Assembly: GCA_023260695.1 (NCBI GenBank)
Contig: JALQUR010000053.1
Location: forward strand, 1 to 43,447
From: Planctomycetaceae bacterium
Lineage (GTDB): Bacteria; Planctomycetota; Planctomycetia; Planctomycetales; Planctomycetaceae
Direction of reading: 5' to 3'
DNA length: 43,447 nt
In this document: one piece after another, positions 11,512 through 32,925 of the stretch
How positions within the stretch are numbered: position 1 is the first letter of the stretch
How the letters are laid out: every line of letters starts with the position of its first letter
The notes under the pieces: generated by a model
What the model was told of the DNA's origin: nothing
The model's input: the letters and a program-made list of their open reading frames with translations, nothing else
Database searches by the model: none
Translations under genes and position numbers: made by a program

Positions 11512-13019
11512 TTGCTCGTACCTCCCGGCGCAGTCGCTGCTGCAGCGTCCTGCGGAGCAAATTCATAATCGCTTGTGTCCCGGCGACGGATTGTCAGCGT
11601 CGCCTGAAAACTTGCGGTCAGCTTACGGCCCACCTGCTGCTCGCGCAGACCGGGAATGCGGATTGAGTGCCAGTCGTCACGCAGTCTGTTCTCCAATGCA
11701 GAAATCTGCTCCGGTGGTGTGGCAACTCCTCGAAATGTAGCCACCGCGGATCCGCTTCCCGCCGGAGAAACAGTCAGCTGCTCGATCACCACCGCCGGAC
11801 TCGATGGGATCCGCGATGTCAGATCGCGAAGCTCGTCCGGCCAGCTGATCCGATTCTTTTCCCAGCTGCTCAGGTAAGCTGAGAGCTGCCGACGTTCTTC
11901 GGTATCACTGAGCAGTTCGTTCAGTTCGCCCAGCCGTTCCTGCAGGCGTTGCTGCTCTTCATCCAGTGCCACAAAATCTGCACGTACTGTCCAGAAGGTT
12001 GCGCCCACAAACAACAGACCAGCCAGAACGGCAACCACCAGCTTCGCTGAGAATCGCGCCTTCGCGACGGGCTTTCTGGGACTTGCAAAATCCACCACAG
12101 CACGAATCTGCTGCAGTTCCTCACTCACCGCAGCGATCAGCCCGCAGTGATCTCCTGCACCCACTGCGTCCGCCATTTCAGAAGATGGCGGCGCTGCCAG
12201 CAGCGAGTCCACAGAAACAATCTGAGTCGTCGCGTCAAAATGTGCATCCAGAAGCTGTTGCAGTTCCGGCAGCAGCTCCTTGTTTCCGGTCAGCATGAAT
12301 CGAGTGATCGGGATCGCTGCAAACGCTGACCCGCGAACAGCCAGCACAGTTCGCTGAATCTCTGCCCCCAGAAATCGACACAACTCCTCAGCAGAGCCCC
12401 CCGCTGCCAGGCGAATGCGGCGCGATGTATGCGGCAGCCCCTGAAGAACTACCGTCAGCTCTGCAAACTCACCACCCACACAAATCACCATGGTCGACGT
12501 GCCGACCGGAAGCTCAGCATCCAGCAGCATGTCCGCAGCAGCAAACCGTCTGAGCGGATGTGTGCTGACCAGGATTTTCACTGCGGTTTTTCCGGAACTC
12601 TTCAGCACCTCTTCCACGAGTTGCTGTGCTTCCGGTACCAGCGACATGCCGCTGACGGTCTGACCACCGTCTTCCTCGGCTGGATAAGCAATGAAGTCCA
12701 GCAGTGTCGCGTCGTTAATCGCCGGAATCTCGCGCAACGCCACGTTTCGCACCAGCTCCGGCAGCTCTTCCTCTGTTGCTGGTGGCAATCGAAACGTCGC
12801 GGAATCCACCGAACCTCGACTGACCAGCAGCAGCAGTCTGCCCCGCTCGCACTTCAACTCGGAGACCAGCGAACGAATTCCAGCTGCTGTTTCCACAGCA
12901 GAACCTGCCAATGCTCGATCACCAAGTGACAGCAGCTTCAGCTGACCGGAGCGTTCACCGTCGGCAAGCACATACCGCAGCTTTCCTGCATCCAGATTGA
13001 CGGCCAGTATCCTTGGCAT
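11508..13019 (-). CDS. gspL: T2SS assembly platform protein GspL-like (PilM-PilN fusion architecture)
   Basis: 503-residue protein. Residues about 1-310 resemble the actin-like cytoplasmic domain of GspL/PilM (start RILAVNLDAGKLRYVLA, later MVICVGGEFAELTVV). A single membrane helix (about 325-345) leads to a coiled coil (350-375) and a PilN/GspL-type ferredoxin-like periplasmic domain (about 400-480). GspL links the GspE ATPase to the membrane platform. The C-terminus is Ala/Pro-rich. It lies 36 bp after gspK and overlaps the next gene by 4 bp (ATGA), so translation is probably coupled. Confidence 0.85.
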   Translation of the reverse strand: MPRILAVNLDAGKLRYVLADGERSGQLKLLSLGDRALAGSAVETAAGIRSLVSELKCERGRLLLLVSRGSVDSATFRLPPATEEELPELVRNVALREIPAINDATLLDFIAYPAEEDGGQTVSGMSLVPEAQQLVEEVLKSSGKTAVKILVSTHPLRRFAAADMLLDAELPVGTSTMVICVGGEFAELTVVLQGLPHTSRRIRLAAGGSAEELCRFLGAEIQRTVLAVRGSAFAAIPITRFMLTGNKELLPELQQLLDAHFDATTQIVSVDSLLAAPPSSEMADAVGAGDHCGLIAAVSEELQQIRAVVDFASPRKPVAKARFSAKLVVAVLAGLLFVGATFWTVRADFVALDEEQQRLQERLGELNELLSDTEERRQLSAYLSSWEKNRISWPDELRDLTSRIPSSPAVVIEQLTVSPAGSGSAVATFRGVATPPEQISALENRLRDDWHSIRIPGLREQQVGRKLTASFQATLTIRRRDTSDYEFAPQDAAAATAPGGTSK

Positions 13020-14687: not shown

Positions 14688-16018
14688 GGCAGCCCTCCTG
14701 GATGCAGATAACCCAGCAGCTCTGCATCGGAAGTCAGAGTCAAAGGAGAACTTCCGCGAATGGTCTGCAACGGAACAATAAACTCATGCCACTCCAGCGG
14801 CGGGAATTCAGGTTCGGCCGACGTCCTTTCAGCACCGTCGCTCGAGGCATCTGCTGGCGTCTGCGGAGCCGACGTTCCGCTGCCACCACCAAATGCCTGC
14901 CGCACTGACTCGAGGTCGCGACTTTGACACATCAGCAGTCGCACCTTCACGGCAATCGGCAATTCCCTGCGACCATCGCTGTTCCACGTGTCCAGCCACT
15001 GATTACCGTCGTAATAACTCAGTTCAAGACTGATCACTTCCGGGATCAGTTCCACCCGTGGACGCATTGCCACAGGAAGCAGACTTGCCGGCGGGAGCTC
15101 ACTCTCGTAAGCACCCGGACCTGCGCTGATCAGTTGCTGTGGAAACAGTTCCTGGAGCAGTTGTTCGAGGTCCGGGACGCCGGCTGTGCGGGCATCAGGA
15201 TCTTCCACAGCAATTGCCTGCAGTAACAACTGATCACACTCAATCCGACATAATCCCGATGGCAGATAAGACTGTTCACTCCCAGCCTGTATCCACGGCT
15301 GAAAAATCCAGAGCACAACCTTCTTTCCCGTTGGGATGATTGTCATGGCCCCCGCTGTACCGGCATCATCCAGCCCGTCTGCATTCATCCCGGGCAGAAC
15401 GGAAAATCCGGAATTCAGCTCTCCGGCGCCGGTACCGAATTCCAGAGAACCGGCGTCAGCAGAAGTAAGATCAATGCTCTGACCGGCCGACAACTGATCC
15501 AGTTCGGCAGGAGTTCCTTCCCTTCGCAGACGCAGACTGTCGATCGATCCCAGCAGGGATGTCCTCAGCGGGGGAAAGCTGCCCCCAGGCATTCCCAGAG
15601 CAATTCGGACCCGGTCGACGTCTGTCATGATCTCCGCGGGAGCAGCGAACAAATCCAGTACCTGTTCCTCCGCAGCGTCCTCAATACCAGTTTCCGATTC
15701 GCTCAGTACATCCTCAGCAAACTTCACCTGCAGTCCACTCCCTGCAAGCGAGGTCTGCTGAAGATCATCCTGCAGCAGCTGCAGCAGGCTGCGGAGCAGT
15801 TGCCGATCTTCACTCTGCTGTCGCCCTGCCGTGAGATAACTGCTGTACAGCGACAGCATGGACCAGATCAGCGTCATCAGTACTGACGTCAGCAACGAAG
15901 CAATCAGTACTTCAATCAATGTGAATCCAGCACGCCCCGCGGCGACAGCCCAGCTCGTGTGAACCAACCGCGACCGGCCTTCAGGTCCCTGATTCAGGTA
16001 CTCCGGCGCGACCTTCAT
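14684..16018 (-). CDS. gspJ: T2SS minor pseudopilin GspJ
   Basis: 444-residue protein. A long leader of about 30 residues ends in a type IV prepilin cleavage motif (AGRAG/FTLIEVLIASLL), followed by the N-terminal helix. GspJ joins GspI and GspK in the tip complex. The size is roughly twice that of classical GspJ; the excess includes acidic and Gly-rich stretches (LDDAGTAGAMTI and a Ser/Gly/Ala stretch around 395-415). Position and order next to gspI and gspK support the call more than similarity in the globular domain, which I cannot test. ATGA overlaps on both sides. Confidence 0.85.
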   Translation of the reverse strand: MKVAPEYLNQGPEGRSRLVHTSWAVAAGRAGFTLIEVLIASLLTSVLMTLIWSMLSLYSSYLTAGRQQSEDRQLLRSLLQLLQDDLQQTSLAGSGLQVKFAEDVLSESETGIEDAAEEQVLDLFAAPAEIMTDVDRVRIALGMPGGSFPPLRTSLLGSIDSLRLRREGTPAELDQLSAGQSIDLTSADAGSLEFGTGAGELNSGFSVLPGMNADGLDDAGTAGAMTIIPTGKKVVLWIFQPWIQAGSEQSYLPSGLCRIECDQLLLQAIAVEDPDARTAGVPDLEQLLQELFPQQLISAGPGAYESELPPASLLPVAMRPRVELIPEVISLELSYYDGNQWLDTWNSDGRRELPIAVKVRLLMCQSRDLESVRQAFGGGSGTSAPQTPADASSDGAERTSAEPEFPPLEWHEFIVPLQTIRGSSPLTLTSDAELLGYLHPGGLP

Positions 16019-16617
16019 GGATTCTCTCCCGCTGAGGGTGCCACCGGAAAAACAGAATCGGGCGAACGCAGATCCAGTTCCTGAAACGCTCCCTGTTCCG
16101 GCTCACCTGCAATCCACTGCGTCAGACTGAATCGCTGCCGTCGTTGCTGCTGCTGATCTCCCTCAGCAACTTCCACAGTCAGACTCCACATGCCAGGCTG
16201 TGCCGGCAATGCTGCAATCCTGACGGAATAACGAAACTCCGGCGTTCCTTCAGCAGCACCAGCAGGTTCTTCGCGCAGAGATGTCTCACCAGCCAGTGTA
16301 CTCCCGCCAGTGCTGATCGTCGGCGGCAGCCGCAGTTGCTCCCACGGAGCGTCCTCAATCATCCCTGCCGAACGCTCACCAAGCAGAATCTCCTGCATCG
16401 TCTGCTGACAGACCTGCTGCAGTTCCGTGCGGACTGCAGCACGCACCGCCTGTTCTCTCCCCATCCCTGCCAGACGAGAGAGCACCACTGCACTGCCCAT
16501 CAGCAACGCCGTGGCGATTACCACTTCCATCAGGGAAAAACCCTGCCGCCGCGGATTTGCCCGCTCCCGCCAGGCACACTTCCCTGGCCTGCACGCTGGC
16601 CGGATCAGAAAAATCAT
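16015..16617 (-). CDS. gspI: T2SS minor pseudopilin GspI
   Basis: 200-residue protein with a 25-residue leader rich in Arg and Cys, then the prepilin motif (RQG/FSLMEVVIATALL) with Glu at +5. The globular part is short, followed by beta-strand-rich sequence (PEFRYSVRIAALPAQPGMWSL). Size and place between gspH and gspJ fit GspI, the pseudopilin that nucleates the tip complex. Both ends overlap neighbours by 4 bp (ATGA). Confidence 0.85.
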   Translation of the reverse strand: MIFLIRPACRPGKCAWRERANPRRQGFSLMEVVIATALLMGSAVVLSRLAGMGREQAVRAAVRTELQQVCQQTMQEILLGERSAGMIEDAPWEQLRLPPTISTGGSTLAGETSLREEPAGAAEGTPEFRYSVRIAALPAQPGMWSLTVEVAEGDQQQQRRQRFSLTQWIAGEPEQGAFQELDLRSPDSVFPVAPSAGENP

Positions 16618-17432
16618 GGCGCAACCTCGTTTGTTGCCGCCGCAGCATCAGCACCTGCATCAATCACCGGAGTCTGCAGGGGGCGGTAAGGATCACTCAC
16701 CACTGCCATCGCAGTCAGACTACGAACGGAAACATCAACCACAAAGTCTCTGCTGCCACCAATCTGAATCACGTCGCTGGCCGATGCTCGCCCTGACGGA
16801 GAGAAACGCACACTCCGCCAGGCGACCGCCGCTACAGCCGCATCCACCGCCGCAGGCTCCTCCGCTGCCACTGTCACCTCGGAATCACCTGTTCCGGCAA
16901 ACTGCGTCCCGTCCGGCAGGAGCCCTGCACGCAGCAACCCTGAAGTCTGCTGGTCGCCGGGCAACAACTCGGCATCCGCAGCAGTCTCCAGTTCCACCAA
17001 CGGCGTCTCCGCAGCGATGTCAGCAGACGCACCAGCAGCGTCACTGATCACGGTGACGGCAGCAGCAGTCGCAGCAACAACCTCCACAATCTGAAATCGT
17101 CGTCCGCCGGGCTCCCACTGAAACTCCACTGCCCTGCCGTTGCGGATAGCCAGCGATCGCGCCTTTGCCAGCGATTCCTGAGTGACTGCTCCCGCGCGAC
17201 GAATCCTGGCCTTGTCCAGCGGTCCGCGGACACTCGGCAGAATCATTCCCGCAAGTCCCGCCAGAATCGCCATCACGATCAGCAGCTCTGCCAGCGAATA
17301 CCCGAGCTCACAACGCGTCCGCAGCCGCTGCCGGTACAGACGCAGCCCCGCTTCACCTGCACACTTCAATTCAGGCGTGCAGGCCCCTGGCAGATACCGA
17401 ACGCTGTGGATTTGCGCCCTCATCACTCTCAC
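16614..17432 (-). CDS. gspH: T2SS minor pseudopilin GspH
   Basis: 272-residue protein with a long N-terminal extension of about 43 residues before the prepilin motif (CELG/YSLAELLIVMAILAG), with Glu at +5. The helix is followed by RKARIRRAG-type sequence and a beta-rich globular domain (RNGRAVEFQWEPGGRRFQIVEV), as in GspH/FimT proteins. A strongly Ala-rich loop (about 112-185) enlarges it relative to classical GspH. The ATG overlaps the gspG stop by 4 bp. The long leader could mean a later start, but the overlap supports this one. Confidence 0.85.
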   Translation of the reverse strand: MRVMRAQIHSVRYLPGACTPELKCAGEAGLRLYRQRLRTRCELGYSLAELLIVMAILAGLAGMILPSVRGPLDKARIRRAGAVTQESLAKARSLAIRNGRAVEFQWEPGGRRFQIVEVVAATAAAVTVISDAAGASADIAAETPLVELETAADAELLPGDQQTSGLLRAGLLPDGTQFAGTGDSEVTVAAEEPAAVDAAVAAVAWRSVRFSPSGRASASDVIQIGGSRDFVVDVSVRSLTAMAVVSDPYRPLQTPVIDAGADAAAATNEVAP

Positions 17433-17980
17433 TCATCCGATGCTCCGGATCCACTGCCGTCGCCAGTCCAGCTGACGATGTCATCGTCAGTGTTCTCCTG
17501 GCCATCCGGGCCAAAGGACCAGATATCCGGCAAATCCAGACCATTGTGAGTCGGCGGATATTCGTAGCTGTAGGCATTACCCCACGGGTCCCTGGGCAGC
17601 GTCTCGGTCTTCAGATAAGGCCCATCCCAGGAACTTCCGGAACCACCCGCAGTCGCGCCACTGTCCTCGCCCTCAGCACTGGCACCGCCATCGCCGGACG
17701 GCTCAGAAACGAGCGCCATCAGTCCCTCTTCGGATGCAGGAAACCGATTCATATCGACTGCGAATCGCTCCAGCGCTGACTGGAACATGCCAATCTGCGT
17801 CTTCACAGAATTGATGTCCGCCTTCTGCTTGCTGCCCAGAAGTCGCGGTCCGATCATCGACACAAGCAGTACCAGAATCGCCATCACAATCAGCAGCTCT
17901 GTCAGCGTAAAGCCGGCTCGCCCTGCCGTTGAAACCATCACAGAAGATCGACGCTGTTTATTGGTACACACTAATCGCAT
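17429..17980 (-). CDS. gspG: T2SS major pseudopilin GspG
   Basis: 183-residue major pseudopilin. A leader ends in the cleavage motif (GRAG/FTLTELLIVMAIL, Glu at +5). The family signature follows: ALERFAVDMNRFPASEEGL, then DGPYLKTETLPRDPWGNAYSYEYP and the C-terminal calcium-site region (WSFGPDGQENTDDDIVSW). An acidic Gly/Ser-rich insert of about 20 residues (SGDGGASAEGEDSG) sits before the DGPYLK motif. The ATG at 17980 is chosen over an in-frame GTG at 17983 because AAAGGA lies about 7 nt upstream. It heads the tightly coupled gspG-to-gspK block, 124 bp after gspF. Confidence 0.95.
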   Translation of the reverse strand: MRLVCTNKQRRSSVMVSTAGRAGFTLTELLIVMAILVLLVSMIGPRLLGSKQKADINSVKTQIGMFQSALERFAVDMNRFPASEEGLMALVSEPSGDGGASAEGEDSGATAGGSGSSWDGPYLKTETLPRDPWGNAYSYEYPPTHNGLDLPDIWSFGPDGQENTDDDIVSWTGDGSGSGASDE

Positions 17981-18073
17981 CACAGTTCCTTTCAGTAATC
18001 TGCAGGCTGAATCGTCCCTGCGATTCCCGCTCTCAGTCCATGGAGGACAGATTTATCCACACATTAGCCCAAC

Positions 18074-18104: not shown

Positions 18105-19313
18105 TCAACTCATCGACGTACTCATTTCGAACACAGGCAGCAGCAGCGCAACAATCACAAACAACACCGCGCTGCCCATCACCATCAGCAGTGCCGGTTC
18201 AATCAGACGCACCATGGTGTCCAGCTGCCTGGCCACCTTCTTATCAATGCCGTCTGCAACACTTGCCAGCACTGTTTCAAGATTGTTCGCCTCTTCCGCG
18301 ATGCTGATCATGGCCATGATTCCAGGCGGGATGAGTCCGCAGCGGGCGAGAGGCGTTGAAAGTGCTTCACCAGCAGAGATGTTCTCTGCCGAATTCCGGA
18401 TCGCCTGCCCCAGAACCACATTTCCGGCCGAGTCACTGCTGATCTCCAGCGCCTTCAGCATCGGCACACCATTTCTCAGCAGCGTCCCCAGAATTCGACA
18501 AAACCTGGATACCGCTCCATTCAGAGCGATCGGGCCGAAAACGGGAACCTGCGTTCGGAAACGGTCCAGCAGCTCGCGCCCACGGACAGAGCTGCACCAG
18601 CGTTTGAACCCGTACAGAATTCCGCCCAGGGCAAGCAGCAGCAGCAGACCGTAACGTCCCAGTGTATCACTCAGCCACAGCAGCAGGATCGTCGGCATCG
18701 GAAGTGTCCCCGCCCGCTCAAGCTCAGCAAACAGATCGGCAAACTTCGGAACAAAGAACACAATCAGAATCAGTGTGACTGTGCTGCCTGCAATCGCCAG
18801 AAATGCCGGATAGGCCATCGCGCCGCGGACCTTTGCTCGCAGCTCCTCCTGCCGTTCCAGAAACTCCGCCGTCTGCTGCAATGCCGATTCCAGAAATGCT
18901 CCCTCTGTTCCTGCACGAACGATGGACAATGTCAGGTCACCGAAAATGTGTCGATGCATGGCCATCGCTTCATGCAGCTGTCGGCCGTCCGCAACCCGAG
19001 TTCGGATATCTGACAGTACTTCACGCATCGTCTCCTGCGGGGTCTGCTGAGCAAGCAGGTCCAGTGCATGCAGCAGTGGCACGCCATTCTGCAGCAGATC
19101 AGAGAGCTGCGTCAGCGTCGCCCCCAGAACTTCTGTACTCACTCCGCGACGGAACTGCAGCTTCAGAAGCGGCTGCCGCGCCGGAGCAACACTGAGCGGA
19201 TACAGCGATTTCCCGGCCAGCATGGTCATCACGTCGTTACGTGAATCAGCCGTAATCAGACCCTTGACGTCCTGACCTGCCATGGTTCGGGCGGTGTAGG
19301 AGAACTCCGGCAA
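18105..19313 (-). CDS. gspF: T2SS inner-membrane platform protein GspF
   Basis: 402-residue polytopic inner-membrane protein of the GspF/PilC family. Two homologous cytoplasmic T2SSF domains (about 65-190 and 265-390) are separated by membrane helices (about 170-190 and 222-240), and a last helix lies at about 370-392. The family motif AYPAFLAIAGS precedes the first helix. The start is a TTG codon: it is the first codon of MPEFSYTARTMAG-type family sequence, and AGGGA lies about 6 nt upstream. The gap after gspE is 102 bp. Confidence 0.95.
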   Translation of the reverse strand: MPEFSYTARTMAGQDVKGLITADSRNDVMTMLAGKSLYPLSVAPARQPLLKLQFRRGVSTEVLGATLTQLSDLLQNGVPLLHALDLLAQQTPQETMREVLSDIRTRVADGRQLHEAMAMHRHIFGDLTLSIVRAGTEGAFLESALQQTAEFLERQEELRAKVRGAMAYPAFLAIAGSTVTLILIVFFVPKFADLFAELERAGTLPMPTILLLWLSDTLGRYGLLLLLALGGILYGFKRWCSSVRGRELLDRFRTQVPVFGPIALNGAVSRFCRILGTLLRNGVPMLKALEISSDSAGNVVLGQAIRNSAENISAGEALSTPLARCGLIPPGIMAMISIAEEANNLETVLASVADGIDKKVARQLDTMVRLIEPALLMVMGSAVLFVIVALLLPVFEMSTSMS

Positions 19314-19415: not shown

Positions 19416-21125
<1,710 letters not shown>

Positions 21126-21432
21126 GGATGTGATGATCCTGAGCCGACAACGGGAAGGATGCGCCGGCAATACAAAGGTGGGATATCTGGCGGGACTACG
21201 AATGATGGACAGAATGTCACTGCCCAACCGCAGCAGGAAGGATTCTAGAAGGCCAATTCGACCCCTTCAATAGCCTGTTTGAGTCAGACACACGTGACAA
21301 TCCATAATGCCCCGTTTTCGTCAGTTTTGAGGGCTGACGCATGCCGAAAATCGGCAGTAAAATCAGTATTTTCAGTATTTTTGTTGTAATCCGCAGCTGT
21401 CCGGTTTGCTCACCGAATCCGAGAATCTCAGG
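21126..21432. other. Intergenic region between the giant N-domain gene and gspE
   Basis: 307 bp without a supported gene. It holds an AT-rich stretch (about 21355-21390) and a short TGCCGA-AAA-TCGGCA inverted repeat around 21342-21356. The spacing is much larger than elsewhere in the T2SS run, so gspE may have its own promoter here, but no convincing -35/-10 pair stands out. Confidence 0.4.
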
Positions 21433-24400
21433 CTACTCGTCCAGAACATCACCGAGGATCTGCATCACACGGCGGGAATTCACTTTTTGCAGCGGAATCA
21501 GGCGGATACCACGAGCTCGAGAGTCGCGAGCAGACTCATCCAGTCGAGACACCAGTTCCTGCAATTCCTCAATCAGAGCCTGAGGTGCTTTCACAACCAG
21601 AGAATTGGTTTCCTGCTGCACCTCAATTGTCAGCAGCGGTGCTGAATTACGGGCATTCAACTGCCGCAGAACACTCGCCACCTCAGCATCAATGCCGGCA
21701 GGAATCGTTACCGGTCGCCGGTTTCCACCTGCTGCCAGTTCCGTCTGATAGACGCTCGAAAGCACGTCCAGAATCTGACCCGCCGATGCGTATCGCACCG
21801 CTATCACCTCTGTCCGAAAGACGCGGCCCGAATCCGGGACCTTCTCTGAATCCAGAACCTCAAGCAGCTGTTCGATCCGCTCGCGATCAATTCTGTTGCC
21901 GTAAACCAGAAGTGCATTCAGACGCGTCTCCGGCACCAGCACCACAGATCCAAAAGCCAGCCGACCCGCCGGACTCTCATAGATCGCTTCCACCGTTTCC
22001 GCCACATCTTCAGCACCCGCATTGCGGAGCTGATAAATCGCAAAGTCCCGACTTCTGCGAACTCCCGAAACTGCTGCCAGGCTCTTCAGCAGACGCTCCA
22101 GCTGATCCAGCGCCGATTTGTCCTCAGAGACAATTGTCACGGTTCCGGATCCCGGGATGACAATCACATCGGCGGCCTCATCAGTTTCGATAACTTCATC
22201 AACGCTCTCATCTCCACTCTCATCAGCGGCAGATTCCAGCGCCGTCGGGATCACAGCGGATGAAAACGCAGGAACCTTCTGAAACTCAGCGCCTTCTTTA
22301 CTTCTGGCAGGATCTGTTCCACTCTGCGGACTCGACGGTGACGCCTGTGGGGCCAGCTCACCAGGCCGCAGAATACGAATTCGATTCTTTCGCAATGAGG
22401 GCCAAAGGTTTTCGATCCTGCGAACAGTCTCCTCCGAATCACCGGGAAACGGAATCACTCGCATCGATGATCCACTGCGGCGACCAGCCGAGCTGCCTGC
22501 AGCGATACCCGGCTCACCCATCTGTGACAACAGGTCACGAATCTCCGTGATCTGACGCGGAGTTGCTCGAATCAGAATCTGTTCAAGGTCCTCATCTGCC
22601 TGCACGATCGGTCCGCTGTACCGCGTTCGCCGTGAATAAGGCGAACTTGAGGAAGAACCTGAGGAAGAACGGGAGGAATAGCTGGACGGAGCTCCGAACA
22701 GGCCCTCAATCGCATTCACCGCTGCATCAGCCGACAGGATCGTAAGCTGTATCACAGCCGTCTCGCGCTCGTCACTCTCCTGAAATCGCTCTGTGACCAC
22801 TCGAGCTTCAGCCTGACCAGCGGCGTTGGCAGAAACGATCATCTGCTGCGTGGAGTCTTCCCAGGAAACACTCGCCCCTTCATCAACAGCACGCAGTGCC
22901 CCCTGAATCACCTCCAGCACCGTATCTCCATCCACTCCCGGCAGAGAATAAACCTCGATCGACCTTGGCATTTCCGCTGACACCGGAGGTTCCATTTCCT
23001 GCACCAGTCCAGCAATCATCTCGTGCTGCTGCGGGCGAGCCACCACAAGCAGAGAATTGCTGCCGGAATCATAGGAAACTCGAACATTGTCCGTTCGACC
23101 AAACATGGTCTGCAATGCCAGAGCTATGGTCTGGCCATCTGCCGTACGCAGCCGATAGGACCGCGGCACAGCGGCGTCAGCTCTGCCCTCACGACTCATC
23201 ATCTGAGAAACAACTTCCTGAATCGTCTCATGCTGCTCAGGTGTCGCAGTAGCCACCAGCACCTCGTCAGCAGCATCCGTCACCAGCACGGCATCCGGCA
23301 TCAGTCGCTCCAGAACTTCCTGAGCTTCATCCGCTTCATATGGTCGCAGCCAGTAACTCTGTGTTTTCAGTCCATCACCCGGAGCTCCGGTGGATGCCAG
23401 CATCTGCCCGACAAGTTCCCGCACCGCAGCCATCTTTCCAGACGGTGCACTGACAAACAGCTGCCGGCCAATACGGTCCGGTGTGACCCGTGCACCCGCT
23501 GGCAGCAGTGGCTGGAGTGCTTCCTGCACCGAGAGTGCATCCATTCGATTCAGTCGAAAGACCGCCAGCTCATGCGGCTCAACAGACTCACCGGGTACAT
23601 CAAGTTCAGCAATCAGTTCGGCGATGGACACGTGCTGATCTTCCCGAGCAAGAACGATCAGACTGCCGGTTTCAGCACTGATAGTCGCGCGCACGTTGTC
23701 ATAGCGGTTGTACATCGAATCAAGCAGATTGCGGACCGTCTCTGCATCCACACTCTGCAGTTGGTAGATCTTCGGCTGCGGCCGAATTGCTCCGGTAGAC
23801 GTGCCTCGCATCTGTGACGCCACCTGCTCAATCGTCTCATGCTGAGCTTTGGTCGCGGTAGCCACGATCATCTTGCGATCGGCATCCGTCACAATCGTGG
23901 CATCGGGAAACAATGCCAGCAGCACTTCCTGGACCTCATCAGCATTGGGAGCACCGACAACGTATGATCTGGTCTCACGATCGCCACTGTCCGCGAGTCC
24001 GGCTGTAATCGATTCGACAAGGCTTCTGACCTCTGCCTGCCGATCAACAGGAACCCGCACAAACAGCTGCCGGCCACCCGGATCAACGGTCAGCTGCACT
24101 CCAGTATCGACCAGCGGCTGCAGCACACGCAGCACTGCACTCGCAGAACTGCCTCGCAACGGATACACGTCCAGTACCTTCTCTGTCCGAGCTGGACGAA
24201 CCTGCTGCAGCTGCTGCAGCAGTTCAGCCACCTGAATATGCTCAGCGTCCGTAGCGACAATCATCAGCTGATCAGCATGAGCCCCGATACTGATTGACGC
24301 CGCCGGAACGGCAGCCTGCAATACCGTTGTCGCATTCCCTCCGAGGTCGTGGATGGAGTAAAGTCGCAACGAACGATCACTTGAGAATGGCTGTTCCTGC

Positions 24401-26577
24401 TGCAGGCGTTCCAGCAATGCCCGAATCTCCGTGTCACGCTGCTGAGTCACCTGCGCCATCAGACGATTCCCCTCAGCCGTCAGTCGGAAACTGACATCCG
24501 ACCATGTGGAAGCAAGCAGGGCCTGCGTCTGAGCTGCGACCTGAGAATTCACCGGGTAGAACTGCAGTGATCGCTCTGTATCACCGGCGGCCTGCTGCAG
24601 TGTCTGCAGAGTCGTCACGATCTGCTGATGATCGTCTGCCGTTGCAATCACGCGGAGCCGATTCAGTGCTGCATCAAGTGTTACGACAGCCTGCGGAACC
24701 AGTGCAGACAAAGTACTGACCGCCGCTGCTCCCGGAGTATTCTCCAGCTCATAAAACTGCAGTTTCAGTTCGGAACCGGGAACCCGAATTTCATCCAGCA
24801 GCGCCGCGACACGGTTGTGGTCGTCCGGTCCCGCCATCACCAGCAACCGCCGATTCGTTGCATCAACAGTCACCGCTGCAGTGGGAATCTGAGTCGCCAG
24901 CATGGTGGTTGCCGTCGTCTGATTCAGTTGCTCCAGAGAATAGCTTTGCAGAGTTCGCTCCGCACGCTCTGCAGTTTCCACACTCTTCAGCAGCAGCTCC
25001 ACCTGAGCATGCTCTGCCGGTCGCGCCAGAATCAGCAGACGCGACCCGTTTGTGTCCGGAATAATCTGCACCTTCGGCAACACGGATGTCAGCAGGCTCG
25101 TCGCTGTCGTGGCAAACGCGGTACTCACCGGATAACCCTTCAGCTCCTGCTGCTGCTCCGGTGCTTCCGCATTCTGCTGCAGCTGCCGCAGCAGCTCAGC
25201 GACCCGCTGGTGATCAGCATCGCTGGCAAGCACAACCAGACCTCGACCAGCACTGTTCACCGTCACCCGCGCCGTGGGAACCAGTCCCGCCAGAATCGTG
25301 GAAACGGTTACCGCTCCGATATCCTCCGTCTCGTACACCACAACACGTGGCCCGGCACTCGTCTGATCCTGCAGCAATTGCTCCAGTGAGCTGCGGATCT
25401 TCTCCTGATCCGCGGCAGATGCCCACGCAATCAGTTTTCCTGCCGTGGCATCAACTCGAAACTGCCCCTGTGGCGCAAGCAACTGCAGAGTCGCGACCAG
25501 CTGCAGCGGGTCCGGAACAATTGCAGGGTATACCTGCAGAACAGGTCGAGCATCTTCACCCTGAGAGCTCTCCAGCTGCTCCAGCACCTTCTTTGCCGTC
25601 AGCTGAGCCTCCGCCGATCCGTAAACCGAAATCTGACCGGCAACAGCATCAACCACCACAGTCCCCTGGATCAGCTCCCGCAGGACTTCTCCCGCTCGAT
25701 CCGGATTCGCGTGCTGCGTCGGATAAACCACCAGCCGCGATCGGAGGTCTTCCGCGGGCTGTTCCGGCACAGCCTGCAGCACCGACTGCACGGCACGCAG
25801 ATTGAGGACCGTGTCTGCGACAAGAATCTGCTTCGTACCCGGCAGCAGTTCGGCCTTCCCGTACTTCCCCAGCAACGGAGTCACTTCTTCCATGATCGTG
25901 TCCGCAGGGCGGTCATTCAGCGGAAACAGTACACTCACAAAATCAAACCGTCCCCGCACCGGAAGTTCTTCCGGCACAACTCGCGGTATCGCGCCTTCCG
26001 GCAGGCCACCCTTCAGATCCAGACACATCAGCATCCGCTCGCGTCGCACCAGACTGAAGCCACGAGTGAGCAGCCAGCCATTCACCAGATCAATGGCCTG
26101 AGCCGGACTGTAGGAACTGGAGTCGGTATAGCTGAACACGCCCGGTGGCTCAGTATCCATGACCAGCGAAAGATCTGCCTCACTGGCCAGCCAGGCCAGA
26201 ACATCGGGCCACTTCTGAGCACGAAAACTGAACTTCAGCGACTTGCCGGAAAATAGTGTGTTGAAAAGACGCCGCTGATCTTCCGTGAGCGTCTGCAGCA
26301 ATCCTGCTTCCGCCGTCGCTGCTGCAGCCGCCTTCGCCTCATCAGTTGTTGCCGCCGCAACCGCCGCCTGCCGAGTTGCCAGAATCTGCAGCACCTGTCC
26401 CCGCTGTTCCGGTGACAGCTGGATTGAAGCCACAACATCACTGTCCGAAAGGCGCTCGATATTCGCTGCAAAGGCCGGAGCATCTTCTGACTGGGCACGC
26501 ACACTGCCCGGCAGCGACGCTGTGATGGCGATCGTGAGCACTGGCAGAAAAAACAGTCTTCGCAGAACTGACAACAT
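21433..26577 (-). CDS. Giant periplasmic protein with about 20 tandem secretin N-domain-like modules and no secretin pore
   Basis: 1,714-residue exported protein. A signal peptide (ends SVRAQ, residue 29) is followed by an Ala/Gln-rich helical segment (45-110), an N0/STN-like region (about 113-188) and then roughly 20 modules of about 58-65 residues from 210 to 1681, plus a partial one at 1690-1714. Each module follows the secretin N1 (Secretin_N) pattern: strand ending in Y or F, helix with LLxxLxP, strand, short turn with N or D, strand (LLVxAxxxxH), helix ending in LLxxL. Modules 800-996 and 1002-1200 form a duplicated three-module block. Ser-rich (1299-1316) and acidic (1450-1470) inserts lie in the C-terminal modules. 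No pore-forming Secretin domain follows. It lies between gspD and gspE on the same strand, so a periplasmic structural role in the T2SS is inferred; function unproven. Confidence 0.85.
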   Translation of the reverse strand: MLSVLRRLFFLPVLTIAITASLPGSVRAQSEDAPAFAANIERLSDSDVVASIQLSPEQRGQVLQILATRQAAVAAATTDEAKAAAAATAEAGLLQTLTEDQRRLFNTLFSGKSLKFSFRAQKWPDVLAWLASEADLSLVMDTEPPGVFSYTDSSSYSPAQAIDLVNGWLLTRGFSLVRRERMLMCLDLKGGLPEGAIPRVVPEELPVRGRFDFVSVLFPLNDRPADTIMEEVTPLLGKYGKAELLPGTKQILVADTVLNLRAVQSVLQAVPEQPAEDLRSRLVVYPTQHANPDRAGEVLRELIQGTVVVDAVAGQISVYGSAEAQLTAKKVLEQLESSQGEDARPVLQVYPAIVPDPLQLVATLQLLAPQGQFRVDATAGKLIAWASAADQEKIRSSLEQLLQDQTSAGPRVVVYETEDIGAVTVSTILAGLVPTARVTVNSAGRGLVVLASDADHQRVAELLRQLQQNAEAPEQQQELKGYPVSTAFATTATSLLTSVLPKVQIIPDTNGSRLLILARPAEHAQVELLLKSVETAERAERTLQSYSLEQLNQTTATTMLATQIPTAAVTVDATNRRLLVMAGPDDHNRVAALLDEIRVPGSELKLQFYELENTPGAAAVSTLSALVPQAVVTLDAALNRLRVIATADDHQQIVTTLQTLQQAAGDTERSLQFYPVNSQVAAQTQALLASTWSDVSFRLTAEGNRLMAQVTQQRDTEIRALLERLQQEQPFSSDRSLRLYSIHDLGGNATTVLQAAVPAASISIGAHADQLMIVATDAEHIQVAELLQQLQQVRPARTEKVLDVYPLRGSSASAVLRVLQPLVDTGVQLTVDPGGRQLFVRVPVDRQAEVRSLVESITAGLADSGDRETRSYVVGAPNADEVQEVLLALFPDATIVTDADRKMIVATATKAQHETIEQVASQMRGTSTGAIRPQPKIYQLQSVDAETVRNLLDSMYNRYDNVRATISAETGSLIVLAREDQHVSIAELIAELDVPGESVEPHELAVFRLNRMDALSVQEALQPLLPAGARVTPDRIGRQLFVSAPSGKMAAVRELVGQMLASTGAPGDGLKTQSYWLRPYEADEAQEVLERLMPDAVLVTDAADEVLVATATPEQHETIQEVVSQMMSREGRADAAVPRSYRLRTADGQTIALALQTMFGRTDNVRVSYDSGSNSLLVVARPQQHEMIAGLVQEMEPPVSAEMPRSIEVYSLPGVDGDTVLEVIQGALRAVDEGASVSWEDSTQQMIVSANAAGQAEARVVTERFQESDERETAVIQLTILSADAAVNAIEGLFGAPSSYSSRSSSGSSSSSPYSRRTRYSGPIVQADEDLEQILIRATPRQITEIRDLLSQMGEPGIAAGSSAGRRSGSSMRVIPFPGDSEETVRRIENLWPSLRKNRIRILRPGELAPQASPSSPQSGTDPARSKEGAEFQKVPAFSSAVIPTALESAADESGDESVDEVIETDEAADVIVIPGSGTVTIVSEDKSALDQLERLLKSLAAVSGVRRSRDFAIYQLRNAGAEDVAETVEAIYESPAGRLAFGSVVLVPETRLNALLVYGNRIDRERIEQLLEVLDSEKVPDSGRVFRTEVIAVRYASAGQILDVLSSVYQTELAAGGNRRPVTIPAGIDAEVASVLRQLNARNSAPLLTIEVQQETNSLVVKAPQALIEELQELVSRLDESARDSRARGIRLIPLQKVNSRRVMQILGDVLDE
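22978..23574 (-). repeat. Second copy of a three-module internal repeat in the giant gene
   Basis: Encodes residues 1002-1200. It corresponds module by module with residues 800-996: GRQLFV is shared in the first module, VTDA and ATATxxQHETI in the second, and NVR plus LIVLAR/LLVVAR in the third. Offset is about 202 residues. Confidence 0.75.
23590..24180 (-). repeat. First copy of a three-module internal repeat in the giant gene
   Basis: Encodes residues 800-996, the partner of the block at 22978-23574. Shared residues are listed there. The modules are more alike at the same phase between blocks than to their immediate neighbours, which points to duplication of a three-module unit. Confidence 0.75.
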
Positions 26578-27193: not shown

Positions 27194-27919
27194 ATGCGTT
27201 ACCTGTGCACCTTTCTGCTGCTGCTTTTCGCAACGGATTCCGCCATGGCACAGGGGATGTTTGGTCCCAGAAATCTGGGGCAGGGAATTTCCGGACGCTC
27301 GTCCACTCGTGGATCTTCCAGCAGATCTGCAGCCGATGACACAGAAGTCCTCAGCCCTTCCAGCTCACTGCAGGGACGTCGCTTCACTCGCGAAGCACGG
27401 ACAGCCGGGGACTTTGTGGGCGCTAATACTCAGAGTGAAGCAGCCGGAAATTTCGTCGGAGCCCAGTCCACTGCACAGACAGCCGTCGCTGCTGCCGTAG
27501 GAATCACTGAAACGGCCGTCGGAGGAACAAATCGCAGACGCGTGCTGCGGCCAGCGGGAATCTATGCCGAACGACTCACTCTGGCCCCTGAACTGCAGCA
27601 GTCCGCCACCAGTTTCAGTCTGCAGGATCTCGCTGCCCAGGAATCGGCCAGCGCTGTTGCTGTCTGGGCTGCGGCACAAGGGATTTCGTTGCAGGTGTCC
27701 GTCGACTCCCGACAGGCAGTACTCTCCGGGATTGTCCAGTCTGAAAAGGACCGGCAGACGGCGGAACTGCTGCTGTTGCTGGAGCCCGGTGTTGATCGAG
27801 TTCGGAATCAGCTGACCGTGGCATCCGCAACACTTCCGGAGCGAAGAGATTCTCCCCCGGTACCGCCTGTCCGTCGCCGTACACCGCCTCAGCGTCCACT
27901 GCTGCGTCCCGGTCCCTGA
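27194..27919 (+). CDS. Secreted BON-like domain protein within the T2SS locus
   Basis: 241-residue exported protein: signal peptide (YLCTFLLLLFATDSAMAQ), then a Gly/Ser/Arg-rich segment (30-65). Two copies of an FVGA motif follow (AGDFVGANTQSEAAGNFVGAQ region, split at about 73-92), then a linker. A C-terminal domain (about 150-215) ends in SVDSRQAVLSGIVQSEKDR and VDRVRNQLTV, which fits a BON domain; BON domains are small periplasmic or membrane-associated modules. The tail is Pro/Arg-rich. GAAGG lies about 9 nt before the ATG. It is the only plus-strand gene inside the T2SS cluster, divergent from the giant gene, and its 3' 305 bp lie antisense to the lipoprotein frame. Role unknown. Confidence 0.75.
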   Translation: MRYLCTFLLLLFATDSAMAQGMFGPRNLGQGISGRSSTRGSSSRSAADDTEVLSPSSSLQGRRFTREARTAGDFVGANTQSEAAGNFVGAQSTAQTAVAAAVGITETAVGGTNRRRVLRPAGIYAERLTLAPELQQSATSFSLQDLAAQESASAVAVWAAAQGISLQVSVDSRQAVLSGIVQSEKDRQTAELLLLLEPGVDRVRNQLTVASATLPERRDSPPVPPVRRRTPPQRPLLRPGP

Positions 27920-28700
27920 CCGCAGCGTCCTGCTGCAATCCCGTAAATCCAGTCAACGGCTCAGATCCCGTGCTGCCGCTACCGCGGAGATTCCGATTCA
28001 GAAAACCCGGCGGCAATGCAATTTCGGTAACGGATACAGATTCTCTCCCACCTGCAATCTGCCGCACTGCTTCCCGCTCTCCGGCAATGTCATCGGTGTA
28101 CGCTGCCTGAGTCACTGCTGAATTCTGCGTCTGTGACTGTGCTGCTGCATCCGCAGGTGCCTGCAGAGATCTCTGTCGCGCAAGTGATTCATAAAACTGA
28201 CTTCCGTCCCCGGGACCTGGCAGAACGACATGTGCGGGACTGGAAGTGAGTTCCGTTCCCTCCACACCCACAAAACGAGTCACCACGGTCAGGTGAGTAA
28301 TCGCACCTCCGGCCGCATCCCACGGCAACCAGAAACTATACGAATGCCCCATTCTGGAATGACTGTAATGCTGCTCCAGGTCGCCCGCAGGAAATACATA
28401 CTTGCGATCCGGGCTGCGCTGAGATGTCCCCAGACTGTCATCCCAGACGTAAACCACCAGCACGCCCTCCGTACGAATCGTGCGGTGCCGTTCCAGTCCG
28501 TAAAACATGACTCGTCCACCAACGCCTCGAGTTGCCGGTTCTCCCGCCTGGTGTAACACCGTATCAGACCAGACCGGAACCATCTGAGTGGCCACCCGCG
28601 GCTCATTGCGATTCCACCAGCTTCCGAGATTTGCACTGGGATTCACCAGCGAGCATCCGCTGCTGAGTACCAGCAGTATCAGGACAACGCAAAGTCGCAT
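27615..28700 (-). CDS. Predicted lipoprotein downstream of gspD
   Basis: 361-residue predicted lipoprotein: a short hydrophobic helix ends in a lipobox (LSSGC, Cys at about 16 from the ATG at 28700). The conserved-looking core (about 45-165) contains VMFYGLERHRTIRTEGVLVVYVWDD, PDRKYVFPAGDLEQHYSHSRMGHSYSFWLPWD and a beta-rich VTRFVGVEGTELTSSPAHVVLPG. The last 100 or so residues lie antisense to the BON-like gene, are Ala/Pro/Arg/Gln-rich, and may not be conserved. A lipoprotein beside gspD could be a secretin pilotin, but it does not resemble GspS or PulS by eye. An in-frame ATG at 28727 exists; 28700 gives a proper lipoprotein signal. 68 bp after gspD. Confidence 0.7.
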   Translation of the reverse strand: MRLCVVLILLVLSSGCSLVNPSANLGSWWNRNEPRVATQMVPVWSDTVLHQAGEPATRGVGGRVMFYGLERHRTIRTEGVLVVYVWDDSLGTSQRSPDRKYVFPAGDLEQHYSHSRMGHSYSFWLPWDAAGGAITHLTVVTRFVGVEGTELTSSPAHVVLPGPGDGSQFYESLARQRSLQAPADAAAQSQTQNSAVTQAAYTDDIAGEREAVRQIAGGRESVSVTEIALPPGFLNRNLRGSGSTGSEPLTGFTGLQQDAAVRDRDAAVDAEAVYGDGQAVPGENLFAPEVLRMPRSADSELDQHRAPATAAVPPSAGPFQTGQSRRVLPVGSRRTPATKSLVPQPRQQQRWPIPGQRDPAD

Positions 28701-28768
28701 CCGTCTTCTTTCTCTCGCAGGTCCCATGCTCTGCCCTCAGTTCCCATCATTCAGCACAGGTCTTCGAA

Positions 28769-31700
28769 TCAGGGCCGCTGTGGCGGCAGTTCCTGAATCG
28801 TACTCGGTCGCACACCCGGCATGACTCGTGGACCTGACCCTGGCCGAATCCGCCTTATCGGACCGCCTCTCATACCGGGCAGGTACCGTCCTGAAACACC
28901 GCTCTCCGGCACTGCAGAATCGCGATCTTCAGTTCCCTGTGGAGCGGTTTCCGGGACCGCCGTCTGCTCTGACAAAGCTGAGTCATCCGGCCATTCTTCG
29001 GCTGCTGGTACCGATGGTGGCTGAGGCGGCTGGATCGGAACTGCCGGCTCCTGTACTGGCTGCAGTACACCGGATTCTTCCATACTGCGAATCCCGGGCG
29101 TGCGGTCCGGATAGATCACTGGTATCTCGTCACCACCCGTTTCACTGCTGACCGGCATTGCCGGGTTGAGCCAGTCGAACACATCCGATGTGATCCATGA
29201 CATGCGAGCCATTTCGACCTGCTTCATCATCTCCTCTTCGGCAGCATTACGGATGACATGCGGCGTCAGAATGATCAGAAGTTCCTTACGCACACTGGAG
29301 GTGCCGTCGTAACGAAACAGGTTGCCTACCAGCGGCAGATCTCCGAGCCATGGAACACGACGTGAGGTGGACCGATTGTCTGAACTGATCAGACCACCAA
29401 TCACAATTGTCTGGCCACTGGCAGCACTGACTGTTGTCTGTGCTGTCGCAATGTTCACCCGCGGCGAACGAATCACCTCGCCATCAGAAGAAACCGACAC
29501 GGGAATCCCGTCGATCTCAGACCCCACATCTGATTTCTCGGCATCCACTTCCATCACAACCATGCCGTCAGGACTGATACGTGGGGTCACACCAAGAATC
29601 AGGCCGACGTTTTCCAGCTCCACGCTGTTGACCTGACCGACCTGAGTAATGCTGGTTCCAACGATTCGCGGAACTTTTTGCCCCACCTGAATGAATGCAG
29701 GCTGATTGTCGAGCGTCATTACCTGTGGCCGGCTCAGAATCTCCAGATTGCGGGACTGATTCATCGCTCGCAGCAGCAGGCTGATATTCTCACTGCTGGC
29801 GGCAAGTACCAGTCCTCCGAATTCCGTATCTGCACTTGTACGCCCAAGGCTGAAGTGCGACAGCGCCTGGCCGGCCACGTTTGCACCACCAGCCAGAGCA
29901 GCTGCAGATCCGGAATTGCCGAGCGCTCTGTTGTTGAAATCAAATCCCGGGGTCAGAGCGCTGTAGCCGGATGCAGGAGCCGGAAGAATACTGCCCAGCA
30001 GACTTCGATCAAACAACAGCGAATCCTGCAGCCCCAGCTCTACTCCGAACTCATGCATGTTGTCCAGAGTGACTTCGGCAAGGATCACCTGAATCATCAC
30101 CTGTGGTGGCTGTTCATCCAGTCCATCCACCAGTTCAATGATCTGCTCAAAGTAACGTGGGGTTGCACTGATGATCAGCGTGTTCCCCACCGGCTCCGGA
30201 ACCACAACCACTTCGGATTCGATCTGCGTGAATGGATTCTGACGTCCCGGTGCTGACAGGTTCACTACCCGTTCGCTGCGGAGAAAGTTGTTGACCGCAT
30301 TGGCCACATCCAGTGCCGGCGAATTCTTCAGTCGGTAAACTCGGTTGATCCGTTCCTGTGTGCCCGCTTCATCAAGCCGCAGCAGCAGCACTTCAACAAT
30401 CCGCAGATCACCCGACGTTCCGGTCGCGATAATACTGTTGGTCCGAATATCAACTGAAAATCGAACCGGTACCAGTGATGATTCTCCTTCAGCCGTCGCC
30501 AGTTGAGGCACCGCTGCCCCGACAGCTTCCGGAAACAGTGATCTGAGCACCTGCACGAGGTCAGATGCATCCCCATTTCGTATCTGAAACACCTTCAGCT
30601 GTGCTGATGTCGCCGGATTCTCATCCAGCGTGCGAATCAGCTCTTCGATCAGGGGCAGCGTTTCCGGTGGCCCCGTCAGAAAGATTCTGTTGGTCCGTGA
30701 ATCCGGAGTCAGATTGATGTCCTCCAGCAGGCCGGAAGCAACAATCTTCCGCCCGTCAGGCCCGGAGAGCAGCATCTGCAGAGCCGCATTACGCTGAACT
30801 CCTGTCCCGCCGCGAGCTGCCTGCAGCGCGTTGTTGACAGTTGTGGCAACATCGATTGCCAGAGCATTCCTGAGCACAATGATCCGCGCCTCATTCACCG
30901 ATCTGGAAGTCTGCCCGTCCAGCCGGGAAATCAGTAATCGTACTTCCGCCAGATCCCGCGGTGCAGCATTGATCACCAGCGAGTTTGTGCGGGTGTCTGA
31001 GGTGACCGTGACTTCCGGACTGAGCCCTCCCCGACTGGCGAAGAACTCTGTAATCAGCGTCTCAACCTGTGCAGCGCTGGCAAACTCCAGTGGAAAGACC
31101 TCCAGCTGCGTCTCCGGTTCGACTGCCTCGTCAAGCCTTCGAATCAGTTTCCAGGCCGCCTCCACAGCTTCGCCCCAGCCAACCAGCAGCAAAGCATTCG
31201 GCTTGACCAGAGGCGTAATTGTGACCCGCCCCTGGAGAGGCCCGGTGAGATCTTCGAGCACTTCGTCAATCACCTCATTGAGGGCATCACCGCGGACATT
31301 TCGCAGATAGACCACTTCAATTTCCGGTGTCGTGAGCTGACTCAGACGTTCGATTTCCTCGATGATCTGACTGAGTTCCGCAATATCCGGATCTCTGCCA
31401 CGCAGGATCATCACGTCCAGATCCGGAAGTGTCTCAACAGCAACATCCGCAGAGGGCCGTTTCATCAGCGGCGCAGCGGCACCCTGATCCGGGGCTGCAT
31501 CTCGGCCCGATAGTTCGTCACCTTCCTGCCACGCCGCAGGCTGAACTCGGCCTCGCACGCTCCCGGAGCGACTCTGCTGCGGAATCGCCGGCAGTGGCTC
31601 TTCATCAGACTCGGAATCTGCATCTCCGGACTGATTCCAGAGTTGTACGGCGCGCTGCACGAGCACACCCTGAGCATCCGACAGACTCACGATCTTCACA

Positions 31701-32515
31701 GCCTGCTCTGCATTCTGAGTCGCCGAATCTTCCAGACACCGAAACAGCCGTTGAAACTGCTCAGCAAGAACACCATCTCCAGCCAGCTCACAGATATTCT
31801 TCCTGTGATCAAACTTCAGAAACAGAGTACGTTCCGTATCACTCACAAAGCTGAACATGCTGCCTTTTCGTTCGATTGCCGGCCCCAGCAGACCTGGCAG
31901 CAACTGCTCTGACCGCAGACTGTCCAGCAGACCGAATCGATATATCTGACGTCCCATGGCGGCGGGTTGTTCCGTCGGCCTCGAAACAGGATCAGGAGCC
32001 TGTTCAGCAGACTGAATGTTTCGCGCCTCAACAGAATTCCCTGACGACGCAGTCAGTACTGTCTGAAACTCTTCGTGTACCGCCGCCGTGGCCAGCACGT
32101 GAACACTGCTACCCGCTGCATCCAGAGCAATTCGAGCTCGGCTCCCCATCTGCTGACGCAATGCTTCCACTGCAGACTCGGCAGCTCCCGGAGACAGCGG
32201 ATAACTCCGCAGCACGGCAGCAGCCTCTGGCTTTGCCGCCGGTGCAGGAGGCCGCTGCATTCGCTGCAGCAATTGTGCAGTGAGTACATGAGCCGTCTGT
32301 GGTCCTGAAACCAGTAATTCACCCCGCTCTGAATCAACCAGAACCCGAGTTTCCTCCGCCTCACGTCCGAGCAGTTCGAGAATCATTCGCTTTGCTTCAG
32401 CGGCATCCACACCAGTTGCTGCGTAGGTACGGAATTCACGTGTTTCCTGGGCGTATGCAGTGCTGCTCAACAGCAGCAGCAGAAACAGAGTCCTTTGCAG
32501 GAAGGGGATTTGCAT
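28769..32515 (-). CDS. gspD: T2SS outer-membrane secretin GspD with expanded N-domain region
   Basis: 1,248-residue secretin. After the signal peptide (FLLLLLSSTAYAQ) come about nine N-domain-like modules (approximately 25-85, 101-158, 189-262, 272-391, 397-463, 469-535, 541-632, 638-716, 724-801), against four in classical GspD. The third and fourth are degenerate or split by an acidic insert. The secretin C-domain spans about 803-1090: LEILSRPQVMTLDNQPAFIQVG, NVGLILGVTPRIS and the signature VPWLGDLPLVGNLFRY with LLIILTPHVI. A Pro/Glu-rich, then Pro/Arg-rich tail of about 150 residues follows, where the pilotin-binding S-domain would be expected. The ATG at 32515 is chosen for its signal peptide; an upstream frame to 32668 lacks one. 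Confidence 0.95.
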   Translation of the reverse strand: MQIPFLQRTLFLLLLLSSTAYAQETREFRTYAATGVDAAEAKRMILELLGREAEETRVLVDSERGELLVSGPQTAHVLTAQLLQRMQRPPAPAAKPEAAAVLRSYPLSPGAAESAVEALRQQMGSRARIALDAAGSSVHVLATAAVHEEFQTVLTASSGNSVEARNIQSAEQAPDPVSRPTEQPAAMGRQIYRFGLLDSLRSEQLLPGLLGPAIERKGSMFSFVSDTERTLFLKFDHRKNICELAGDGVLAEQFQRLFRCLEDSATQNAEQAVKIVSLSDAQGVLVQRAVQLWNQSGDADSESDEEPLPAIPQQSRSGSVRGRVQPAAWQEGDELSGRDAAPDQGAAAPLMKRPSADVAVETLPDLDVMILRGRDPDIAELSQIIEEIERLSQLTTPEIEVVYLRNVRGDALNEVIDEVLEDLTGPLQGRVTITPLVKPNALLLVGWGEAVEAAWKLIRRLDEAVEPETQLEVFPLEFASAAQVETLITEFFASRGGLSPEVTVTSDTRTNSLVINAAPRDLAEVRLLISRLDGQTSRSVNEARIIVLRNALAIDVATTVNNALQAARGGTGVQRNAALQMLLSGPDGRKIVASGLLEDINLTPDSRTNRIFLTGPPETLPLIEELIRTLDENPATSAQLKVFQIRNGDASDLVQVLRSLFPEAVGAAVPQLATAEGESSLVPVRFSVDIRTNSIIATGTSGDLRIVEVLLLRLDEAGTQERINRVYRLKNSPALDVANAVNNFLRSERVVNLSAPGRQNPFTQIESEVVVVPEPVGNTLIISATPRYFEQIIELVDGLDEQPPQVMIQVILAEVTLDNMHEFGVELGLQDSLLFDRSLLGSILPAPASGYSALTPGFDFNNRALGNSGSAAALAGGANVAGQALSHFSLGRTSADTEFGGLVLAASSENISLLLRAMNQSRNLEILSRPQVMTLDNQPAFIQVGQKVPRIVGTSITQVGQVNSVELENVGLILGVTPRISPDGMVVMEVDAEKSDVGSEIDGIPVSVSSDGEVIRSPRVNIATAQTTVSAASGQTIVIGGLISSDNRSTSRRVPWLGDLPLVGNLFRYDGTSSVRKELLIILTPHVIRNAAEEEMMKQVEMARMSWITSDVFDWLNPAMPVSSETGGDEIPVIYPDRTPGIRSMEESGVLQPVQEPAVPIQPPQPPSVPAAEEWPDDSALSEQTAVPETAPQGTEDRDSAVPESGVSGRYLPGMRGGPIRRIRPGSGPRVMPGVRPSTIQELPPQRP

Positions 32516-32925
32516 TGACTGGAACTCGTCTGGGCAATTCGATAGGTGGGAGCGTTGCAGCCATTCTGCAGCAACGCCAGCAAAAGAGGACCGGGCGTGA
32601 GCTGCAGGGAGTAACCCCCCGGCTTGACGGCTTTTGTGAGAAATAAGGAAATCTGCATTCGAAGCCAAGATGGGACCGGCGAAAGCACGGCTTCATCTGC
32701 CAGACATCGCGTCGCATGTGCTGCTCCGCTGGCAGATTCCTGCAATAGTCCGCCGCAACAATGAATGCTGACTGCCGAAATAAACTCCCAGTGGCAGAAT
32801 CTGCCGCTCAGAAATCCCACCCTGACCACCATCAGACCGCAGAGACTTCTGCTCATCGCAGCATTCATTATGCTGCTGTCTGCCAGAAGTCCCGTTCACC
32901 CCGGAATGCTCAACTGAATGCTGCA
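32516..32925. promoter_or_regulatory. Divergent region between gspD and the mntR-like gene
   Basis: 410 bp that should hold the promoters of gspD (minus) and of the regulator gene (plus). A GCGTTGC/GCAACGC inverted repeat with a 12-nt spacer (32552-32577) lies 37 bp upstream of the gspD start and might be a leader hairpin or operator. No clear sigma70 boxes were found. The plus-strand frame runs through part of it from 32761, but that sequence does not look like protein of the MntR family. Confidence 0.35.

Follow-up and report, generated by a model that had tools for sequence, protein, structure and literature searches.

The type II secretion system (T2SS) operon analyzed here raises the question of what an exported protein may do that is built of secretin N-domains and lacks a pore. 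The window, a stretch of 43,447 nucleotides from a Planctomycetaceae bacterium, carries the gene of this protein, termed the array, at 21433–26577 on the minus strand, on which all further domains and T2SS genes of the window lie as well. The gene is an intact open reading frame with an ATG start and translates to 1,714 amino acids. In agreement with the original prediction, which had described an exported protein with an N0-like region and about 20 modules of the N1 pattern, a hydrophobic signal sequence ending in ARA-Q was recognized by eye in the translation (residues 1–29, 26491–26577; MLSVLRRLFFLPVLTIAITASLPGSVRAQ). A helical stretch lies between this signal peptide and the N0 domain (residues 110–190, 26008–26250), which proved to be genuine: in relatives, the Pfam profile type_II_gspD_N0 (PF21305) matched three out of ten members with a best E value of 4.7e-4, and the six best PDB matches of a profile built from relatives, five GspD and one PilQ protein, all fell onto N0 (E values of 0.015–0.09, each weak alone). 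As predicted, the secretin pore domain (PF00263) found no match in the array protein with Pfam, nor in any of the 62 arrays counted in this study, and because this domain is missing, the array by itself is not classed as a secretin.

Behind N0, an HMM built from the modules of the locus itself detected 17 tandem modules at residues 218–1355, the first of which was weak, and further modules at 1513 and 1590. The tandem modules, delimited here as A01–A17 (residues 214–1355, 22513–25938), are followed by a split module A18 (residues 1370–1500, 22078–22470) with two half-modules around an acidic, poorly conserved linker, by A19 and A20 (residues 1511–1684, 21526–22047; full modules at 1513–1576 and 1590–1681) and by a terminal half-module A21a (residues 1686–1714, 21436–21522) that comprises beta1-alpha1 only. 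The approximate borders of A18 and those of A21a were placed by eye and homology. The predicted number of modules was borne out by this layout, and both the Secretin_N search and the structure prediction that had been proposed along with it gave positive results. Pfam Secretin_N matched the array with an E value of 7.9e-92 in 12 significant stretches, an AlphaFold2 model of A10–A12 (pLDDT 75) showed three repeats of the order beta-alpha-beta-beta-alpha, and all of the 20 best PDB matches obtained for it with Foldseek were N-domains of T2SS secretins. Towards the C-terminus, residues 1480–1681 aligned with residues 141–320 of E. coli GspD (phmmer, 5wq7, E value of 2e-6), and the best stretch for the gspD family TIGR02517 was found at 1468–1681, with 215 bits and therefore below the equivalog cut-off of 351. 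A block of three modules is duplicated, A10–A12 recurring as A13–A15 with identities of 43% (A10/A13), 57% (A11/A14) and 39% (A12/A15). It is conceivable that such modules form a flexible string of N1 folds without rings, which binds cargo or the cell wall or acts as a ruler of the periplasm. The divergence of the tandem modules from those of GspD (mean identity of 20%) and a module number that differs within the genus would be compatible with this, but the N-domain folds and the regular spacing of 64–69 residues per module argue against it, and a cargo binder is hardly expected to be fused straight to a pore, as similar arrays are in giant secretins with up to 47 module hits. We consider a flexible string quite improbable.

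In the direction of transcription, the operon consists of gspD, a lipoprotein gene, the array gene, gspE, gspF, gspG, a GspH-like gene, an N_methyl gene and gspJ as additional pseudopilin genes, then gspK, a PilM/GspL-like gene and a GspM/GspC-like gene. The original prediction had correctly placed the array on the same strand between gspD and gspE but had missed the lipoprotein gene and a BON-domain gene in between. The gspD gene (28769–32668, likely start at 32515) encodes a signal peptide, about eight or nine N1-like modules, one of them split, and the pore (Secretin_N with seven significant stretches; Secretin with an E value of 1.7e-45), while no N0 was detectable in the GspD of the window even with search filters off. 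Its split module D4 (residues 322–446, 31331–31705) corresponds to the chain-break point in other loci. The lipoprotein gene (27615–28727, lipobox LSSGC) is a pilotin candidate, given that its homologues in other lineages throughout the class lie directly downstream of pore-bearing gspD genes (L062, L063, L064, L049, L066, L067, L100 and others) and that in other genomes it follows gspD rather than the array, as a pilotin would. The BON-domain gene (27194–27919, plus strand) is convergent with it, the 3' ends overlapping by approximately 300 bases, and this overlap recurs at L022, L023, L024, L041 and L059.

The ATPase gene gspE (19416–21227; T2SSE, E value of 2.2e-139) is located 206 bases downstream of the array and is followed by gspF (18105–19313; T2SSF, 1.7e-52), gspG encoding the major pseudopilin (17429–17983; T2SSG, 7.2e-26) and a segment at 13056–17432 with the gspH-like gene (weak Pfam GspH match), an N_methyl pseudopilin gene, gspJ (T2SSJ) and gspK (T2SSK_1st). 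The PilM/GspL-like gene (11508–13019), assigned to the inner-membrane platform, showed a weak match to the NCBIfam entry Amuc_1101 PilM-like (E value of 0.0085) and has homologues in other T2SS loci. The GspM/GspC-like gene (10618–11511), whose homologues immediately precede arrays, giants or GspD, is a candidate for the inner-membrane partner of N0. A search of its product for an HR domain yielded weak matches to GspC (2lnv, E value of 0.32) and, in one member, to Pfam PilP (0.12); matches to Pizza6 were discarded as irrelevant, these being designed propeller proteins. GspM/GspC-like proteins at L062 (5409–6590), L089 (6606–8504) and L065 (3547–6291) contain extra putative Ig/cadherin-like repeats in the linker that joins the coiled coil to the C-terminal domain, and their size ranges from about 300 to 914 amino acids, as if lengthening had affected this linker too.

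The location of the array in the usual gspD slot directly upstream of gspE and its ending in a half-module might suggest a decaying gspD copy that lost its pore. This is contradicted by dN/dS values of 0.075 and 0.098 against two relatives, which indicate strong purifying selection, and by the terminal half-module, which with identities of 97% and 79% in two relatives is conserved as well as the full modules (90% and 75%; the A18 linker reaches 51% and 39%). It ends every array scanned within the genus, and the identical ending in all arrays examined together with the presence of arrays throughout the family leaves decay with next to no probability, so that this explanation was rejected. A frameshift or truncation artefact was dismissed as well, since the C-terminus is kept in all genus members scanned and is under purifying selection. 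The gene is conserved in the genus with 13 to 20 module hits per array. Single modules or blocks are gained or missing between species, A04–A09 being absent at L059, for example. N0, A01–A03, A10–A15, A17–A20 and the terminal half-module were present in every complete array of the genus that was scanned.

The comparison covered 62 distinct arrays that have N0, lack a pore and could be read completely or almost completely. Their sizes are about 940–1,500 amino acids (mostly 5–7 module hits) and 1,333–2,690 amino acids (13–32 module hits). In 39 of the 62, a gspE gene of the same strand is no more than 3 kb away, in the slot that is usual for gspD. Within the family, array-type N0 domains are present in 119 out of 120 genomes. 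Together with the Secretin_N matches and the signal peptide, this neighborhood speaks against modules of another fold and against a cytoplasmic protein that is widespread without T2SS genes, both of which the original prediction had named as observations that would count against it. Some genomes harbor arrays without a T2SS gene in the 20 kb read around them. At the threshold used, five genomes (G025, G030, G038, G027 and G039) had neither an array match nor a T2SSG pseudopilin match; the pairing fails for G034, with a T2SSG match but no array match, and for G035, where a fused secretin occurs without a T2SSG match. The co-occurrence of array and T2SSG across genomes is therefore suggestive only.

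Further pore-less proteins with N0 and N1 modules were observed. A separate class of paralogues of approximately 960–1,050 amino acids (L047, L048, L053, L054 and L055) is distinct in the N0 tree, and gspE is absent from the 20 kb read in four of these five loci. The source genome itself contains two additional pore-less N0 + N1 frames, L042 (9423–12236, contig C77) and L043 (1–2937, contig C597), both cut by contig ends, so that a pore may lie beyond the cut. The N0 tree places L042 with arrays adjoining gspE in sister species and L043 with N0-bearing pore GspDs, and because of this placement a second bipartite system is probably present in the source genome.

The relation of the array to GspD can be read from relatives in which both are fused. 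The single-chain secretins L028 (3,269 amino acids) and L029 (3,240 amino acids) contain N0, 28–29 modules and a pore. In both, N0 is followed by a tandem stretch of about 22 modules and a split module; two modules then lead to another split one, and five more precede the pore. Without the large expansion, the same plan is found in L037–L039 (2,175–2,328 amino acids; N0, 9–11 modules and pore). Position-specific HMMs derived from the genus modules placed the array positions before the GspD positions on the fused chains (N0-A01-...-A17-A18b-A20-(D4b)-D6-D7-D8-D9-pore). At L049, where the gene order is GspC/M-like gene, array, pore-bearing GspD and lipoprotein, the array comprises N0, 7 module hits, a terminal first half-module and a disordered tail, and the GspD, which has no N0, has the matching second half-module as its first element behind the signal peptide. 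This looks like a gspD that was severed where it stands, within an N1 module; given that the array ends and GspD begins with halves of the same module, the chain break lies in the linker between these halves.

N-domains and pore thus lie on separate genes in an order that matches a single chain elsewhere, which suggests a split secretin. We hypothesize here, with a probability of roughly 0.62, that two genes together encode the secretin of this T2SS and that the array represents its half next to the inner membrane. Arrays with no T2SS gene in the 20 kb read and the class of paralogues located apart from gspE count against this hypothesis. Since fused relatives exist, an arrangement of array and GspD along one channel is the most economical reading, and to this extent the original prediction, according to which the array assembles with GspD to lengthen the channel, is supported. 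Rather than as an accessory component, however, the array is better viewed as the N-terminal half of the secretin, because fused chains share the module order, L049 appears cut in place and the GspD of the window lacks N0.

A duplicated pore-less secretin paralogue might instead form its own ring stack, or a sheath, beside or around the pseudopilus or GspD and not end-to-end with the latter. GspD is devoid of N0 in the window and its genus and at L062, L064 and L049, but in several sister genera (L063, L065–L067, L089 and L100) N0 is retained in the pore-bearing GspD as well, so that strict complementarity, with N0 on one protein only, holds in the window and fails there. N0 on both proteins is expected after whole-gene duplication, and an alignment of the C-terminal array region with residues 318–690 of GspD (26% identity) points to a common repeated plan. 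The fused chains of the same order and the in-place split at L049, however, favor an end-to-end arrangement, and there is neither evidence for a second concentric assembly nor positive evidence for the sheath and cargo-wrapping ideas of the original prediction. A separate stack or sheath is therefore regarded as unlikely.

Returning to the two-gene secretin, the half-modules indicate where both proteins could meet. In all array/GspD pairs examined (15/15), a first half-module closes the array and GspD holds the second half (D4b). Joined to D4b, the array half scored 17–41 bits as one module, and in the three trans pairs tested, including that of the window, the joined halves outscored all 200 shuffles. 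The degenerate first half of D4 in the GspD of the window scored poorly with the HMM, 27 of 200 shuffles being as good. In an AlphaFold2 model of GspD residues 318–600, a beta-alpha element, a disordered linker and a beta-beta-alpha element were predicted with low confidence. According to this model, the GspD of the window can apparently supply the first half of D4 by itself, and the array half-module may be surplus in this window. The claim that GspD is unable to complete D4 without a partner was rejected in view of the beta-alpha element, and for the same reason obligatory trans-complementation is not claimed for the window. That the beta1-alpha1 half of the array and the beta2-beta3-alpha2 half of GspD build one N1 module in trans, which locks the two ring stacks, is a tentative proposal that we consider possible, if doubtful. 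If true, the trans-complemented tube would have nearly 30 layers (over 40 in the fused giants) with a length set by module copy number, and these would be the longest secretin channels proposed.

Single-chain giants of 4,213–5,073 amino acids with N0, 43–47 N1 module hits and a pore were observed in two further lineages of the phylum (L082, 2308–17529; L083, 3227–17101; L084, 2065–15936; L085, 3219–17036; L086, 3096–15737). Secretins of ordinary size (741–972 amino acids, 3–4 modules) occur in other families of the phylum (L096–L098, L101). The pore-domain tree unites split and fused secretins of planctomycetes in a single clade (94/92). Apart from the long-branched G032, the split secretins make up a subclade of it (97/89). 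The giants L082–L086 sit on separate branches of this tree, and for this reason the giant module expansion may have arisen more than once. Both fission of a fused ancestor and duplication followed by complementary loss could have led to the split pattern; the columns of the N0 tree are too few to tell them apart, and the presence of N0 in both partners in some of the sister genera favors some duplication in this history.

Secretin N-domains stack as rings, and by homology we infer that exported array protomers would do likewise and that the array would contact GspD physically. N0 would be positioned at the base of the stack and face the GspC/M-like platform, in line with the GspC HR domains that hold N0 at the secretin base (PMC6882859). 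The C-terminal end of the array would meet the N-terminal modules of the GspD ring, with the terminal half-module as a good candidate for a docking element that completes, or swaps into, an N1 module of GspD, and GspD would supply the stack on the outer-membrane side as well as the pore. The joint periplasmic tube would consist of about 20 plus 8–9 module layers and would be perhaps 60–110 nm long if each module equals a ring of 2.5–4 nm. Along this tube, the pseudopilus would push cargo to the pore. The number of modules changes through the duplication and loss of blocks, by which the tube length could be tuned.

Such a tandem-lengthened, two-gene secretin would provide a concrete and testable answer to the question of how T2SS machines bridge a periplasm of unusual width, and would illustrate how gene fission within a single fold can remodel a multi-ring machine. 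Mahajan et al. 2020 (GBE, doi 10.1093/gbe/evaa159) reportedly described Planctomycetales T2SS outer-membrane proteins with extended periplasmic segments that match a periplasm of ~45 nm in Tuwongella. In the literature searched, a scope outside which that report lies, no T2SS secretin half was found that lacks a pore and carries tens of N1 modules. The statement of the original prediction that no T2SS component of this form had been described accordingly holds in detail within this literature; split secretins and long N-domain stacks are each known, and it is their combination that, as far as the literature searched shows, is new in detail.

Like GspD (TIGR02517; E. coli GspD 5wq7, XcpQ, PulD), the array starts with N0 followed by N1-type modules, it occupies the same operon slot ahead of gspE, and its fold matches are GspD N-domains. 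In contrast to GspD, it has no pore, carries about 20 N1 modules where a typical GspD has three, contains acidic linkers inside split modules and ends in a half-module. The rhizobial type III secretion system (T3SS) has a secretin encoded by two genes as well, RhcC1 and RhcC2, with an N-terminal part separate from the C-terminal pore part, whereas the system studied here is a T2SS; as far as the excerpts of these papers go, no array of ~20 modules is described for RhcC1 (PMC3574062, PMC3973906). PilQ of Thermus thermophilus, called one of the largest systems characterized so far, has six stacked N-domain rings in a complex of 35 nm and a periplasm of ~70 nm (PMC5745081, PMC4463427). The extra N-rings by which PilQ crosses a very wide periplasm are the feature to which the array, known here from its sequence, is likened by homology, although PilQ is a single chain with six N-domains and belongs to a type IV pilus and not to a T2SS. 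Compared to these six domains, the single-chain secretins of 4,213–5,073 residues with their 43–47 module hits widen the range of N-domain stacks several-fold.
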